Source: Zoogloea ramigera
GTDB taxonomy: Bacteria > Pseudomonadota > Gammaproteobacteria > Burkholderiales > Rhodocyclaceae
Assembly: GCF_006539865.1 (NCBI RefSeq)
Contig: NZ_BJNV01000046.1
Span: 1-42,059 of the forward strand
DNA length: 42,059 nucleotides
Direction of reading: 5' to 3'
Of this stretch, positions 9,128-23,737 are shown in pieces. A program made the position numbers and the translations under genes. The notes beneath the pieces are model-generated. The model was not told where the DNA came from. It ran no database searches and worked only from the letters and a program-made list of their open reading frames with translations. The first letter of the stretch is position 1. Every line of letters begins with the position of its first letter.

Positions 9128-9415
9128 ACAATTTGCTCCCGCCCCGAGCACCATTACTCCCGCCGCGAGAAACAGTACTACCGCGGATAGAAACATTGCT
9201 CCCGCCGGGAGAAACATTACCGCTCCGTGGAGAAACATTGCTCCCCGCAGCGGTAAATTTGCTCTCGCAGGTATTAATGTTTCTACGCCGGGGTAGAAAC
9301 ATTACTCGCCACAAGAGAAACATTGCTGCTTTTTGCAGCATCGTTACTACCCGGACCCACCAATGTTTCCGTTGGCGAGAGAAATTTTGGTGCACTCAGG
9401 TAGCAACATTTCTCC
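9128..9415. repeat. Minisatellite A: 21-bp hairpin-repeat array
   Basis: At least eleven tandem units, mostly 21 bp, each made of an 8-bp block (consensus AAACATTG or AAACATTA) and a 13-bp block that tends to be an inverted repeat, CTnnn...nnnAG. Clear blocks start at 9149, 9170, 9191, 9212, 9233, 9297 and 9318. Several hairpin arms differ yet still pair: CTCCC/GGGAG (9199-9211), CTCC/GGAG (9223-9232), CTAC/GTAG (9283-9296) and CTGC/GCAG (9326-9338). One unit (9275-9296) is 22 bp, which shifts the frame, and the array decays after about 9360. It fills most of the 392-base gap between vanZ and the DUF2322 gene. Confidence 0.85.
9275..9304. repeat. 12-bp perfect inverted repeat inside minisatellite A
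   Basis: TAATGTTTCTAC (9275-9286) and GTAGAAACATTA (9293-9304) pair perfectly around a GCCGGG loop. Here the AAACATT block appears once in each orientation, making the strongest hairpin of the array. Confidence 0.9.
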
Positions 9416-9457
9416 GGCCAACAGCAAATACCCCAAGCCTGCGGCTGCGGAAGCACC

Positions 9458-9487
9458 AAAAAACAAGGGCCGCCCGCAGGCAGCCCT
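9458..9487 (-). terminator. Intrinsic terminator of the DUF2322 gene
   Basis: A 9-bp stem with one G-T pair (9466-9474 with 9479-9487) closes a 4-base loop. On the minus strand it is followed by a run rich in T (TTGTTTTTT). It lies about 24 bases after the DUF2322 stop codon. Confidence 0.85.
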
Positions 9488-9510
9488 CATCTCACTGGTG
9501 ACAGCCGGGA

Positions 9511-9828
9511 TCAGGTGGCGAAGACGTGCTTCACCCGCAGCGTCTCGCCGCGCTCGACCAGCCCGATCAGGCGGTCGATGTTGGGGTGCTTGCCCGGGTT
9601 GAGGCGCGCATCCTCGCTGTGCTCGGCGTAGATCTCGATGCCCTGGGTAGCGGCCTCGGGGGTGATCGCCCCGTGGAGCTGGCCGAGGTGGTTGTAGACC
9701 GCCAGCGAGCCGGCCTGGCCGGGCTTGTTCTCGATGGTGGCGACCACCTCGCCGGCGGCGTCGAGGAGCTGCAGCGCGGCCAGATGCGAGACGCCGGGCA
9801 GGGTCTTGAGTTTGTCGGCGAATGCCAT
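9511..9828 (-). CDS. DUF2322 family protein
   Basis: A small soluble protein of 105 residues. The run GEVVATIENKPGQAGSLAVY, a central YAEH and the sequence NPGKHPNIDRL are the conserved features by which I recognise DUF2322; its function is unknown. There is no signal peptide or membrane segment. It lies 69 bases downstream of purB on the same strand and may be cotranscribed. A terminator follows. Confidence 0.7.
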   Translation of the reverse strand: MAFADKLKTLPGVSHLAALQLLDAAGEVVATIENKPGQAGSLAVYNHLGQLHGAITPEAATQGIEIYAEHSEDARLNPGKHPNIDRLIGLVERGETLRVKHVFAT

Positions 9829-9897
9829 GGAAAAATCTCCGGAGTAAAAACGGGAGCTGCAGGGGCGACCGAAGCCGGCCCTGCCGCCCCGCGGCGA

Positions 9898-11265
9898 TCA
9901 GATGCGCTTGGCCAGCTCGGCGGCCTTGCCGATGTAGCTGCCCGGGGTCATGGTGAGCAGGCGGGCCTTTTCAGCTTCGGGGATCGCCAGGGTACCGATG
10001 AATTCCTGCAGGGCTTCCTTGGTGATGCCCTTGCCGCGGGTGAGCTCCTTGAGCTGCTCGTAGGGGTTGGGCACGGCGTAGCGGCGCATGACGGTCTGGA
10101 TAGGCTCGGCGAGCACTTCCCAGCAGGCGTCGAGGTCGGCCGCCAGGCGGGCCGGTTCGGCCTCGAGCTTGCCCAGGCCGCGCAGGCAGGAATCATAGGC
10201 CAGCACCGCGTAGCCGAAGGCGACGCCCATGTTGCGCAGCACGGTGGAGTCGGTGAGGTCGCGCTGCATGCGCGACACCGGCAGCTTGTCGGCCAGGTGG
10301 CGCAGCACGCCGTTGGCGAGGCCCAGGTTGCCCTCGGCGTTCTCGAAGTCGATCGGGTTCACCTTGTGCGGCATGGTGGACGAGCCGATCTCGCCGGCCT
10401 TCAGCTTCTGCTTGAAGTAGCCCAGGGAGATGTACATCCAGATGTCGCGGCAGATATCCAGCACGATGGTGTTGGCGCGGGCGGTGGCGTCGAACAGCTC
10501 GGCCATCGCGTCGTGGGGTTCGATCTGGATGGTGTAGGGGTTGAAGGCGAGGCCCAGGGATTCGATGAAGCGGCCGTTGAAGCCTTCCCAGTCGAAGTCG
10601 GGGTAGGCCGACAGGTGGGCGTTGTAGTTGCCCACTGCGCCGTTGAACTTGGCGGTGAGCTCGACCGCGGCGATGGACTTGCGCACGCGGCGCAGGCGAT
10701 ACACCACGTTGGCCATTTCCTTGCCCAGGGTGGTCGGGCTGGCGGGCTGGCCGTGGGTGCGCGACAGCATCGGCAGCTCGGCGTGCTGGTGGGCCAGCTC
10801 GACGAGGCGGTTGATGATCTTGTCGAGGGCCGGCAGCAGCACGCCATCGCGGCCGTCACGCAGCATCAGCGCGTGGGAGACGTTGTTGATGTCCTCGGAG
10901 GTGCAGCCGAAGTGGATGAATTCGGTGACGCGGGTGACTTCGGGGTTGTGGCCGAGGCGTTCCTTGAGCCAGTACTCCATGGCCTTCACGTCGTGGTTGG
11001 TGGTGGCCTCGATGGCCTTCACCGCCTCGCCGTCGGCGACCGAGAAGTTGGCGATCACGGCGTCGAGCTCGGCCACGGTGGCCGCCGAGAAGGGGGCGAT
11101 CTCGGCCAGCTCGGGGGCGGCGGCCAGGGCCTTCAGCCACTCGATCTCGACCTTGACCCGGTTGCGGATCAGGCCGAACTCGGAGAAGTGCTCGCGCAGC
11201 GCGGAAACCTTGGATTCGTAGCGGCCGTCGAGGGGCGACAGCGCGGTGATGGGTTGCAGGTTCAT
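9898..11265 (-). CDS. purB: Adenylosuccinate lyase
   Basis: A 455-residue enzyme of the fumarase/aspartase superfamily. It cleaves SAICAR to AICAR and adenylosuccinate to AMP, releasing fumarate, in purine synthesis. The N terminus [16 protein letters not shown] and the signature [19 protein letters not shown] match PurB, and the length equals that of the E. coli enzyme. I chose the ATG at 11265, 36 bases inside the longest frame, because similarity starts exactly there. A terminator-like hairpin lies in its leader (11287-11314). The DUF2322 gene follows on the same strand. Confidence 0.96.
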
Positions 11266-11284
11266 GGGGAAGGCCCTTGAGGCT

Positions 11285-11314
11285 AAAAAACAAAGGCGCA
11301 CATTTTAGCGCCTT
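11285..11314 (-). promoter_or_regulatory. Attenuator-like hairpin in the purB leader
   Basis: AAGGCGC (11293-11299) and GCGCCTT (11308-11314) form a 7-bp stem with an 8-base AT-rich loop. On the minus strand it is followed directly by TTTGTTTTTT, then the purB start about 20 bases on. It has the form of an intrinsic terminator placed before the gene: either a leader attenuator or a leftover terminator. Confidence 0.6.
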
Positions 11315-22382: not shown

Positions 22383-22402
22383 GATGGGTGTCCGCGGCCC
22401 GC

Positions 22403-23185
22403 TTACAGCGAGGTGAGCTTGCCGAGCATGTTGTCGGAGGTGGAGATGGCCCGGGAGTTGAGCTCGTAGGCGCGCTGGGTCTGGATCATCAGCACCAGCT
22501 CTTCGGCCACGTTGACGTTGGAGGTTTCCACATAGGTCTGGTTGAGGCTGCCGACGCCGTTGGTGCCCGGGGTGTTGGGGTTGGCGGTGCCGCTGGCGGC
22601 GGTCTCGAGGAAGAGGTTTTCGCCCACGCTCTGCAGGCCGCCCGGGTTGACGAAGCTGGCCAGCTGGATGTTGCCGATCTGCGCCGCGGCGGCCTGGTTG
22701 GGCAGGGTCACCGAGACCACGCCGTCCTTGCCGATGGTGACCGACAGGGCGTTGGCGGGGATGGTGATGGCCGGCTGCAGCGGGTAGCCGCTGGAGGTGA
22801 CGATCTGGCCGTTGGCGTCTTTCTGGAAGGCGCCGTCGCGGGTGTAGGCGGTGGTGCCGTCGGGGGTGAGGATCTGGAAGAAGCCTTCGCCCTGGATCGC
22901 CACGTCGAGGGCGTTGCCGGTCTGGGTGAGGTTGCCCTGGGTGTGGATGCGCTCGGTGGCGATGGGGCGCACGCCGGTGCCGATCTGCAGGCCCGAGGGG
23001 ATGGTGGTCTGCTGTGTGGACTGGGCGCCGGGCTGGCGCAGGTTCTGGTATAGCAGGTCTTCGAACACCGCCCGCGCGCGCTTGAAGCCATTGGTGGAGA
23101 CGTTGGCGAGGTTGTTGGAGATGACGTCGAGCTGGGTCTGCTGGGCTTCGAGGCCGGTGCGGGCAATCCACAGGGAGCGGATCAT
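22403..23185 (-). CDS. flgG: Flagellar distal rod protein FlgG
   Basis: A 260-residue distal rod protein, the usual length. It opens [47 protein letters not shown], written here only as the known FlgG start, and ends with an [26 protein letters not shown] D0 helix. GGAG lies six bases before the ATG. Unlike most genomes, where flgF and flgG are adjacent, a 597-base gap separates them, holding a sigma54 promoter, an intrinsic terminator and minisatellite B. flgG therefore heads its own unit, flgGHIJ. Confidence 0.96.
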
Positions 23186-23277
23186 GGTGGGCTCCAGAAT
23201 TTCGGTGTCGCCCGGGGGGCGAGGGGTTGGCCGCCGACAGAAGATGAATACACGGGCAGCAGGGTCATCCTAAGCTC

Positions 23278-23293
23278 AGCAAGTCCCGTTCCA
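23278..23293 (-). promoter_or_regulatory. Sigma54 promoter of flgG
   Basis: On the minus strand the sequence reads TGGAACGGGACTTGCT: GG and GC lie exactly 10 bases apart, with one mismatch to TGGCACG-N4-TTGCW. It gives a leader of about 80 bases before flgG. Confidence 0.8.
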
Positions 23294-23311
23294 GGCCCGG
23301 AGGAAGTGGTG

Positions 23312-23333
23312 AAAAGGCGGCCTATTTGCCGCC
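23312..23333 (-). terminator. Intrinsic terminator after flgF and minisatellite B
   Basis: GGCGGC and GCCGCC (23316-23321, 23328-23333) pair around a 6-base AT-rich loop, followed on the minus strand by TTTT. It would end the flgBCDEF transcript just before the flgG promoter. Confidence 0.7.
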
Positions 23334-23421
23334 GGGGCGGCAGTGGCCAGGGGAAACACGGCAGCGGCGGCCGGCGGTGCGGAAAAATTTGCCGGACGGC
23401 AGGCCCACGGCGAGGCACATC

Positions 23422-23737
23422 GGGCCGGCGGGATGGGTGTACGGGTCGCTGCGATGGGTGTGCGGGTCGCGGCGATGGCTTTGCGGGTCGCCGTGGCGGG
23501 AGCGCGGGTCGCGGCGATGGGCAGGCGCATCACGGCAATGGGTGCACGCATCTCCGGGATGGCTGCGCGCATTGTTGCGATGGGAGGACGGGTCCGCCGC
23601 GACGGGTGCGGGCATTGCAGCGACAGGCCTTGGCGTCGCTGCGATGGGAACACGCATCGCAGCGATGGGTGCGAGGGTCGCCACGATGGGCGCGTGCATC
23701 CCGGCGATGGGAGAGGCTGTCGCTGCGATGGAAACAG
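23422..23737. repeat. Minisatellite B: 21-bp hairpin-repeat array between flgF and flgG
   Basis: Fifteen tandem units; the first ten boundaries fall at exactly 21 bp, and one unit (23632-23653) is 22 bp. The unit consensus is about GSRTCGCnGCGATGGGWGCRC. Bases 3-13 of a unit are an inverted repeat (ATCGC-n-GCGAT); in several units both arms change or are saved by G-T pairs, for example ATCTC-C-GGGAT (23549-23559) and GTCGC-C-GTGGC (23486-23496). The 22-bp unit breaks the reading frame on both strands. The array starts 46 bases after the flgF stop (minus-strand sense) and ends before the terminator, so it should be the 3' UTR of the flgBCDEF mRNA. Confidence 0.85.

Follow-up and report, generated by a model that had tools for sequence, protein, structure and literature searches.

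Why should two tandem arrays with the same period, but with different sequences, lie within 42 kb of one bacterial genome? The question is raised by the window analysed here, i.e., the whole of contig NZ_BJNV01000046.1 (42,059 bp; C46) of Zoogloea ramigera, the draft genome of which (the source genome, G000) comprises 4.6 Mb in 207 contigs. Genomes, contigs and individual loci are denoted below by the prefixes G, C and L. The window contains two arrays of 21-bp units, A and B, which a sequence-only reading had taken as two instances of a recurrent class of genomic element. Such a class exists: arrays with a 21-bp period recur throughout the sampled part of the genome, in about nine unit families, and different families are found at the same place in sister species, which suggests a fast-moving, probably selfish, bacterial satellite DNA. 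The two arrays of the window are as follows.

9128..9340 (approximate), no strand assigned: array A, about ten 21-bp units with the core (A)GAAACATT(A/G)CT and a variable C/G-rich dyad
9341..9430, no strand assigned: continuation of array A, degenerate and partly inverted, with AATGTTTC / GAAA..TT motifs, recognised by reading and by alignment to genome G007
23425..23740 (approximate), no strand assigned: array B, about fifteen 21-bp units with the core (G/A)TCGC-n-GCGATGG

Within the window, arrays A and B are the only stretches where identity at a lag of 21 bp rises more than 5 standard deviations above the mean, and both are detected by Tandem Repeats Finder (TRF). The best lag-21 score over 84 bases is 0.74 for each of them, whereas 200 random windows matched for dinucleotide frequencies reached at most 0.52; the two arrays are confirmed as real. 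The units are arranged head to tail with one period, as in bacterial minisatellites and satellites. The two arrays are unlike in unit sequence, as had been stated: their best ungapped identity is 0.44 over 104 bp, close to the median of 0.40 for all 325 array pairs. Each contains one +1 slip (between 9253 and 9295 in A, at about 23600 in B), and neither is overlapped by a called gene.

For the genome-wide sample, up to 20 kb from the start of each of contigs C1–C40 was read together with the window, amounting to 0.813 Mb or 17.7% of the genome. In this sample there are 12 intergenic arrays at lag 21, 16 at lag 42 (the double of 21) and none at lags 19, 20, 22 or 23. A looser three-lag score gives 17 arrays at lag 21 (three of them, L097, L124 and L094 at 3391, weak or coding-like), none at lags 13, 16, 17, 19, 20, 22, 23, 25, 26, 29 and 31, and 4, 1, 1, 1, 1, 2 and 1 at lags 14, 15, 18, 24, 27, 28 and 30, respectively. 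With a threshold of 0.50, the matches at the seven lags last named are the 21-bp arrays L105 and L117, L111 with 14-bp units, L123 with 7-bp units and the coding-like L097. Fourteen 21-bp loci were accepted on reading: A, B, L088, L093 (weak), L094, L104, L105, L106, L107, L109, L110, L114, L117 and L121. Dropped by eye were, in the source genome, L097 and L117 at 18062 (coding-like), L111 and L123 (for their 14-bp and 7-bp units) and, in other genomes, L018, L028, L031 at 17179, L047, L214, L194 and L298 (coding or low-complexity); a further match to array B by DNA similarity (C10:17500) was dropped, as it reads as coding sequence. The density is thus one array per approximately 60 kb. With the window excluded, the count of 12 arrays in 0.77 Mb corresponds to some 70 in the whole genome; this estimate is rough, since repeats may be overrepresented at contig starts. 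The scan which the sequence-only reading had called for therefore found further arrays in the sampled 17.7%, and these are related both to convergent gene ends and, class-wide, to dyads (below). Among the matches listed, no known class of 21-bp arrays was recognised in the open-access literature.

Given that 21 is three times seven, a 7-bp sub-period was considered as the origin of the period. It is seen in Aquabacterium arrays, G011c, L117 and the C9 array; it is missing from A and B, and so is not a general explanation. Intergenic arrays of 7-bp units of CCACTAC and GGCGACA types also occur in the source genome (L098:2176, L104:21 and L123:839).

The unit consensuses of the approximately nine families differ. 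Four families are present at more than one locus (L088/L104/L105; L107/L109; L110/L114/L121; L094 and a C39 array), and A, B, L106, L117 and a C9 array are each the single member of their family in the portion read. The arrays on C4 (L088) and C20 (L104) share 92% identity along 294 bp without a change of register, and no match was found between their flanks (5.5 kb compared with the first 6 kb of C20, which has just 441 bp on one side); judged by its sequence, this pair is a copied array. Arrays also travel, since the same family can be found at several loci and one array has a near-exact copy elsewhere. The proposal that arrays were amplified locally from different seeds thus stands for the local turnover of units, but not for the seeding of every locus. 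A longer interspersed repeat, read by eye, lies in gaps beside some arrays: with motifs such as GGCGACGC.AAGA and GCTCGGTG..TCCGGAAAG, it is found at G007 C168:3440-4106 (L316), L104:21-204 and L156:1-400.

The two arrays of the window have the following neighbours. Array A is in the gap of a convergent gene pair, and array B is within the flg operon, in the gap between flgF and flgG:

8747..9118, + strand: VanZ-like gene (Pfam VanZ, 29.9 bits, slightly below the cut-off of 30.1), ending immediately before array A
9511..9828, - strand: DUF2322 gene (Pfam PF10084, E 2.9e-40), convergent with the VanZ-like gene, with its 3' end towards array A
22403..23185, - strand: flgG (Pfam rod domains), downstream of array B
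23783..24523, - strand: flgF (position and Pfam Flg_bbr_C and D1 domains; FlgG-like match at 23819-24517), upstream of array B

Four loci were compared with relatives: the flgF–flgG gap, C4 (L088), C21 (L105) and array A. A FlgG match is present in 35 of the 40 genomes searched (counting the source genome). In the flgF–flgG gap the source genome has type B, whereas G005 and G007, whose FlgG proteins are 100% and 99% identical to that of the source genome, have an A-related array (identity 0.57–0.59 with A and 0.44 with B); in the other 19 members of the genus that were read (L128–L146), the gap showed no array. The flgF–flgG arrays of G005 and G007 have seven units each, mostly the same variants reordered together with one private unit, and flanks that are 98% and 99.5% identical. 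A-like arrays are also found on one more contig in each of these two genomes. In the C4 gap, G007 has an array resembling L117 (0.63 over 161 bp, compared with 0.39–0.46 to five other arrays); the gap is just 43–104 bp in G003, G014 and G011, and no match on both sides was found in G005 and G008. At the C21 locus, the array of G005 belongs to the same family but is shorter, G007 has about one unit beside a lone end of an IS256-type insertion sequence (IS), and G008, G003 and G014 have no array (gaps of about 20–55 bp). Array A is retained at the same place in G007, with 84% identity over 9128–9430 and 17 gap positions; the VanZ/DUF2322 gap of G003, considered as a further array site, contains extra called genes and no array. 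In total, the family has been swapped at two of the four loci, the array has been shortened or nearly lost at one, and it has been kept at one. Gain, loss or rearrangement of units among relatives, as in satellites, is thus seen at flgF–flgG and at C21.

Other samples yielded three arrays in 71 kb of G007, two in 83 kb of G005, one in 100 kb of G003 and four in 95 kb of G011; in G005, G007 and G011 the samples are biased, as several contigs were picked for the flg or purB locus or for an array match. Two of the four G011 arrays have a common flank but lie on separate contigs and differ in unit number: L230:151-542 and L233:3928-4115 agree in the flank and the first eight units, and one is shorter by about eight units, which is either a copy-number variant or an effect of assembly. 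No array was found in the sampled 100 kb of G006, 80 kb of G012, 80 kb of G020 and 40 kb of G017, although G020 and G017 do have arrays adjoining IS ends (G017 with a score of 0.57). In other genera, six genomes (366 kb) gave one match and four more, reached through named loci (Thauera, Denitromonas and two others; 200 kb), also gave one, both of which read as coding. In 1.38 Mb from 80 loci of named species or metagenome-assembled genomes (MAGs), one array was accepted, from Aquabacterium, and a second came from a further 155 kb of that genome (G040). The nearest named relatives of the source genome by purB belong to Thauera (80–81% amino-acid identity).

With respect to gene orientation, 12 arrays of the source genome have both neighbours called: six are in convergent, five in co-directional and one in divergent gaps. 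The other gaps of at least 200 bp comprise 16 convergent, 83 co-directional and 44 divergent (n = 143), so that the convergent excess (6/12 compared with 16/143) has p 0.002, or p 0.004–0.005 with shorter gap cut-offs. The 12 were hand-chosen from the lag lists, leaving out two weak arrays (L094 at 3391 and L124 at 15881; one convergent, one co-directional) and L104 and L109, for which the second called neighbour is missing. Array A contains two of the three terminator-like sites detected in the surrounding kilobase (0.7 expected), and near array B there is a single such site, at a distance of 18 bp from the array edge (0.2 expected). A location at a gene 3' end, which had been described for both, is a weaker point than stated: B lies inside an operon, and for the class the place between convergent gene ends is a preference rather than a rule. 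A REP-like (repetitive extragenic palindromic) palindrome, GTCGGGTTA..TAACCCGAC, occurs in 23 copies in 0.81 Mb, among them window 8553-8590, L104:155-381, L117:16069-16094 and L249; three of the 23 are within 150 bp of an array, a weak association (p 0.011). Elsewhere in the window there is a thiamine pyrophosphate (TPP) riboswitch (2062-2161, + strand, 65.8 bits compared with a gathering threshold of 54.3), directly 5' of a 638-amino-acid open reading frame (2195-4111), which from this context is presumably thiC.

Dyads were assessed in 29 hand-delimited arrays by permuting the 21 columns, a null that keeps the period and the conservation of each column. Outside these tests were L093, the short array L104:233, the arrays at L253, L256 and L258, the G007 copies of A and the G007 array at C168. 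Dyad excess at p ≤ 0.05 is present in 13 of the 29 arrays for stems of 4 and in 14 for stems of 5 (Fisher 2e-12 and 4e-12); because arrays of the same family are not independent, combined figures were also obtained with one array per family (8e-9 and 1e-8). The arms covary above column shuffles, which remove covariation only, in six and eight of the 29 arrays and in four and five of the 16 families (stems of 4 and 5, respectively). The two Aquabacterium arrays are of similar build, with dyads of about 13 bases and spacers of 8 bases; one has covariation with stems of 5 (p 0.048 and 0.033 in two tests) and, with stems of 4, p 0.032 and 0.123, while the other does not reach it (p 0.44–0.72). Under the null that keeps the period, dyads are marginal in array A (p 0.02–0.30) and not significant in array B (p 0.08–0.59). 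The small dyad that had been described for both arrays is in excess over the class as a whole, but it is not a constant feature, as B shows.

We tentatively favour, at a little short of an even chance, the view that the arrays are a lineage-restricted palindromic satellite, which amplifies in register, is sometimes copied to new sites, survives in permissive gaps and has its dyads kept by template switching. Arrays would grow and shrink by slippage or by in-register unequal exchange, which would lock the period at two helical turns, or 21 bp, and leave the sequence free to drift. Template switching during replication would make and keep the hairpins, as an imperfect hairpin can template its own other arm; since each arm would be templated by the other, the arms could vary yet stay complementary, with no function needed. 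That template switching is able to create and maintain hairpins via compensatory change is stated in the accessible part of the source [see PMC8794818]. New loci would be seeded by occasional copying, through recombination or some other activity, and purifying selection would spare arrays only where insertions are tolerated, e.g. in gaps between gene ends, which would also be places where IS256-type and REP-like elements land. On this view the arrays are most probably selfish or neutral DNA and now and then affect RNA structure at 3' ends as a by-product.

Several points weigh against a palindromic satellite. The hardest fact is the period: slippage alone gives no reason for exactly 21 bp in unrelated families unless all of them go back to one ancestral array. 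That descent is hypothetical, and for most pairs of arrays the similarity is only that of unrelated sequences. The common period could come from common ancestry, two-turn phasing or a measuring enzyme. No copying enzyme was identified. In the tests of the 29 arrays there is no dyad excess in 15–16, A and B included, and no covariation in 21–23, and for the first half of array B folding does not surpass that of shuffles (z -0.8 and -1.7). Array A, with its 84% identity at the same place in G007, is more stable than might be expected of pure junk.

An unlikely explanation is that the arrays are phased DNA-binding platforms, i.e., nucleoid or boundary elements in which a dimeric protein of weak sequence specificity occupies dyads two turns apart, with a second axis at 10.5 bp. 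Twenty-one base pairs equal two turns of B-DNA, unrelated families keep 21, and periods of 20 and 22 were not found. Furthermore, in six arrays 25 of the 32 intervals between neighbouring strong dyads deviate from a multiple of 10.5 by no more than 0.75 bp. However, a 21-bp period with one dyad axis automatically has a second axis half a period away, so that this spacing is expected of any palindromic array with this period. The families have no common sequence core, and the swapping of families at one site between sister species means that no site-specific factor has been conserved there.

Rather doubtful is a function in RNA, in which tandem hairpins at 3' ends would act as barriers to processing or as bidirectional termination zones. 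The convergent excess and the terminator-like hairpins within A and at the edge of B are in its favour, as is the folding of single strands in 141-base stretches, which is better than that of shuffles for A (z -4.2 and -5.0 on the two strands) and for the second half of B (z -4.2, minus strand); the same measure gives z -5.1 for Aquabacterium and -6.9 for L121. Yet array B precedes flgG within the flg operon, and in its first half the folding is no stronger than that of shuffles. Near-pairs have no clear bias of GU over AC (119 compared with 89 in 28 arrays), i.e., no strand signal, and close relatives gain and lose the arrays.

Improbable, in our judgement, is a dedicated activity that would write or copy palindromic arrays into conserved intergenic sites and set their 21-bp unit by two helical turns whatever the sequence, so that one site would receive different families in different species. 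Two known types of enzyme, the Y1/RAYT (REP-associated tyrosine transposase) and IS256 transposases, were considered as drivers; both candidates are weakened by missing matches in genomes that have arrays.

For IS256-family elements, whose ends might make the arrays or be the points from which they grow, the case is poorer still, and we regard it as quite improbable. A 29-base IS256-type end, assigned to the family from the transposase in four genomes, has 68 matches in 20 genomes; 30 loci were read, 28 of which have enough outer flank. At eight of these 28 ends, a 21-bp array with a score of at least 0.60 lies outside the tip and ends no more than about 25 bp from it (six of 26 once the two loci that were the source of the motif are dropped), and two further ends have arrays by eye, with scores of 0.57–0.58. 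As a rough comparison, 2.0% of the sampled non-coding bases of the source genome are no further than 150 bp from an array. Both IS ends of the source genome adjoin an array, outside the tip on C39 and inside the tip on C9 (L249). But 20 of the 28 ends are array-free by score, and so are four of the five copies for which both ends were observed, and the source genome, rich in arrays, has just two IS ends and no match to an IS256-family transposase. As G007 has 10 ends, no transposase match and contigs that break at IS copies, absence of the transposase from a draft genome is weak evidence. Insertion of an IS into or beside palindromic arrays accounts for the contact equally well, and among the 30 loci no inward-facing pair of terminal repeats encloses an array, as would be expected of an IS256-derived miniature inverted-repeat transposable element (MITE). 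The element itself (L245–L274) is about 1.39 kb long, with many lone ends and, in G017 (L246), a probable 9-bp target duplication read by eye.

It is very improbable that the arrays are tandem clusters of REP sequences (GTAG/CGTC type) for which a RAYT Y1 transposase supplies the mobility. As described in the accessible part of the source, the GTAG-1 REPs of Thauera sp. MZ1T are clustered stem-loops with 5-bp stems [see PMC3733652]; the arrays here resemble these, from a related genus, in their short stem-loops, their clustering and their interspersed, intergenic positions. They differ in lacking GTAG enrichment and, in the source genome, a RAYT gene, and in keeping a fixed 21-bp period over many unrelated families. 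As to a palindromic stem-loop unit, dyads are in excess class-wide but not significant in 15–16 of the 29 tested arrays. The terminal tag is not enriched: GTAG occurs 14 times where 50.4 are expected and CGTC 50 times where 61.5 are expected (26 arrays, 311 units). Y1 matches are present in the array-bearing G003 (2), G011 (1), G017 (1), G021 (1) and G022 (1), but Y1_Tnp (PF01797) has no match in the array-bearing G000, G005, G007, G009, G020 and G040, and has four each in G006 and G012, which are array-free in their samples; the G005 and G007 assemblies are 80–82% complete. Membership of the REPs thus fails on the tag and, in the source genome, on the enzyme.

Eroded heptad-repeat coding sequence is scarcely credible: although 21 bp equal seven codons and some units can be read as heptads, each array of the window has a +1 slip, no called gene and no open frame throughout, and the other multiples of three (15, 18, 24, 27 and 30) have at most one intergenic array each. 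A CRISPR (clustered regularly interspaced short palindromic repeats) array is unlikely, as the 21-bp units have no unique spacers (no search for Cas genes was made).

The arrays can be placed among known tandem repeats. Bacterial minisatellites, or variable-number tandem repeats (VNTRs), and the satellites of eukaryotes are likewise tandem, variable in copy number and homogenised, with families replaced over time. We know of no period common to the whole genome in ordinary VNTRs, unlike the arrays here, and satellite DNA with replacement of families, familiar in eukaryotes, has to our knowledge hardly been described in bacteria. The TAACTGA direct repeats of marine Beggiatoaceae similarly form many intergenic tandem sets per genome with a sporadic distribution, but they are, in the accessible part of the source, heptamers with one conserved 7-bp unit, mostly located before start codons [see PMC4679880], whereas the present class has 21-bp units, many families and an excess between convergent genes. 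Borgs also have many unrelated tandem repeats per genome, with rapid turnover and independent origin; those repeats are, as far as the source could be consulted, perfect, A-rich and varied in unit length [see PMC9879509], in contrast to the imperfect, partly palindromic 21-bp arrays here.

What do the arrays mean for this lineage? They would serve as fast markers for the typing of strains. They also carry a warning, in that RNA structure with covarying stems could come from replication errors alone. A class in which the period is fixed while the sequence is free, and in which sites are held in common while families are swapped, would permit the question of what sets the period of a tandem repeat (slippage, helical phasing or an enzyme) to be asked in a tractable bacterium.

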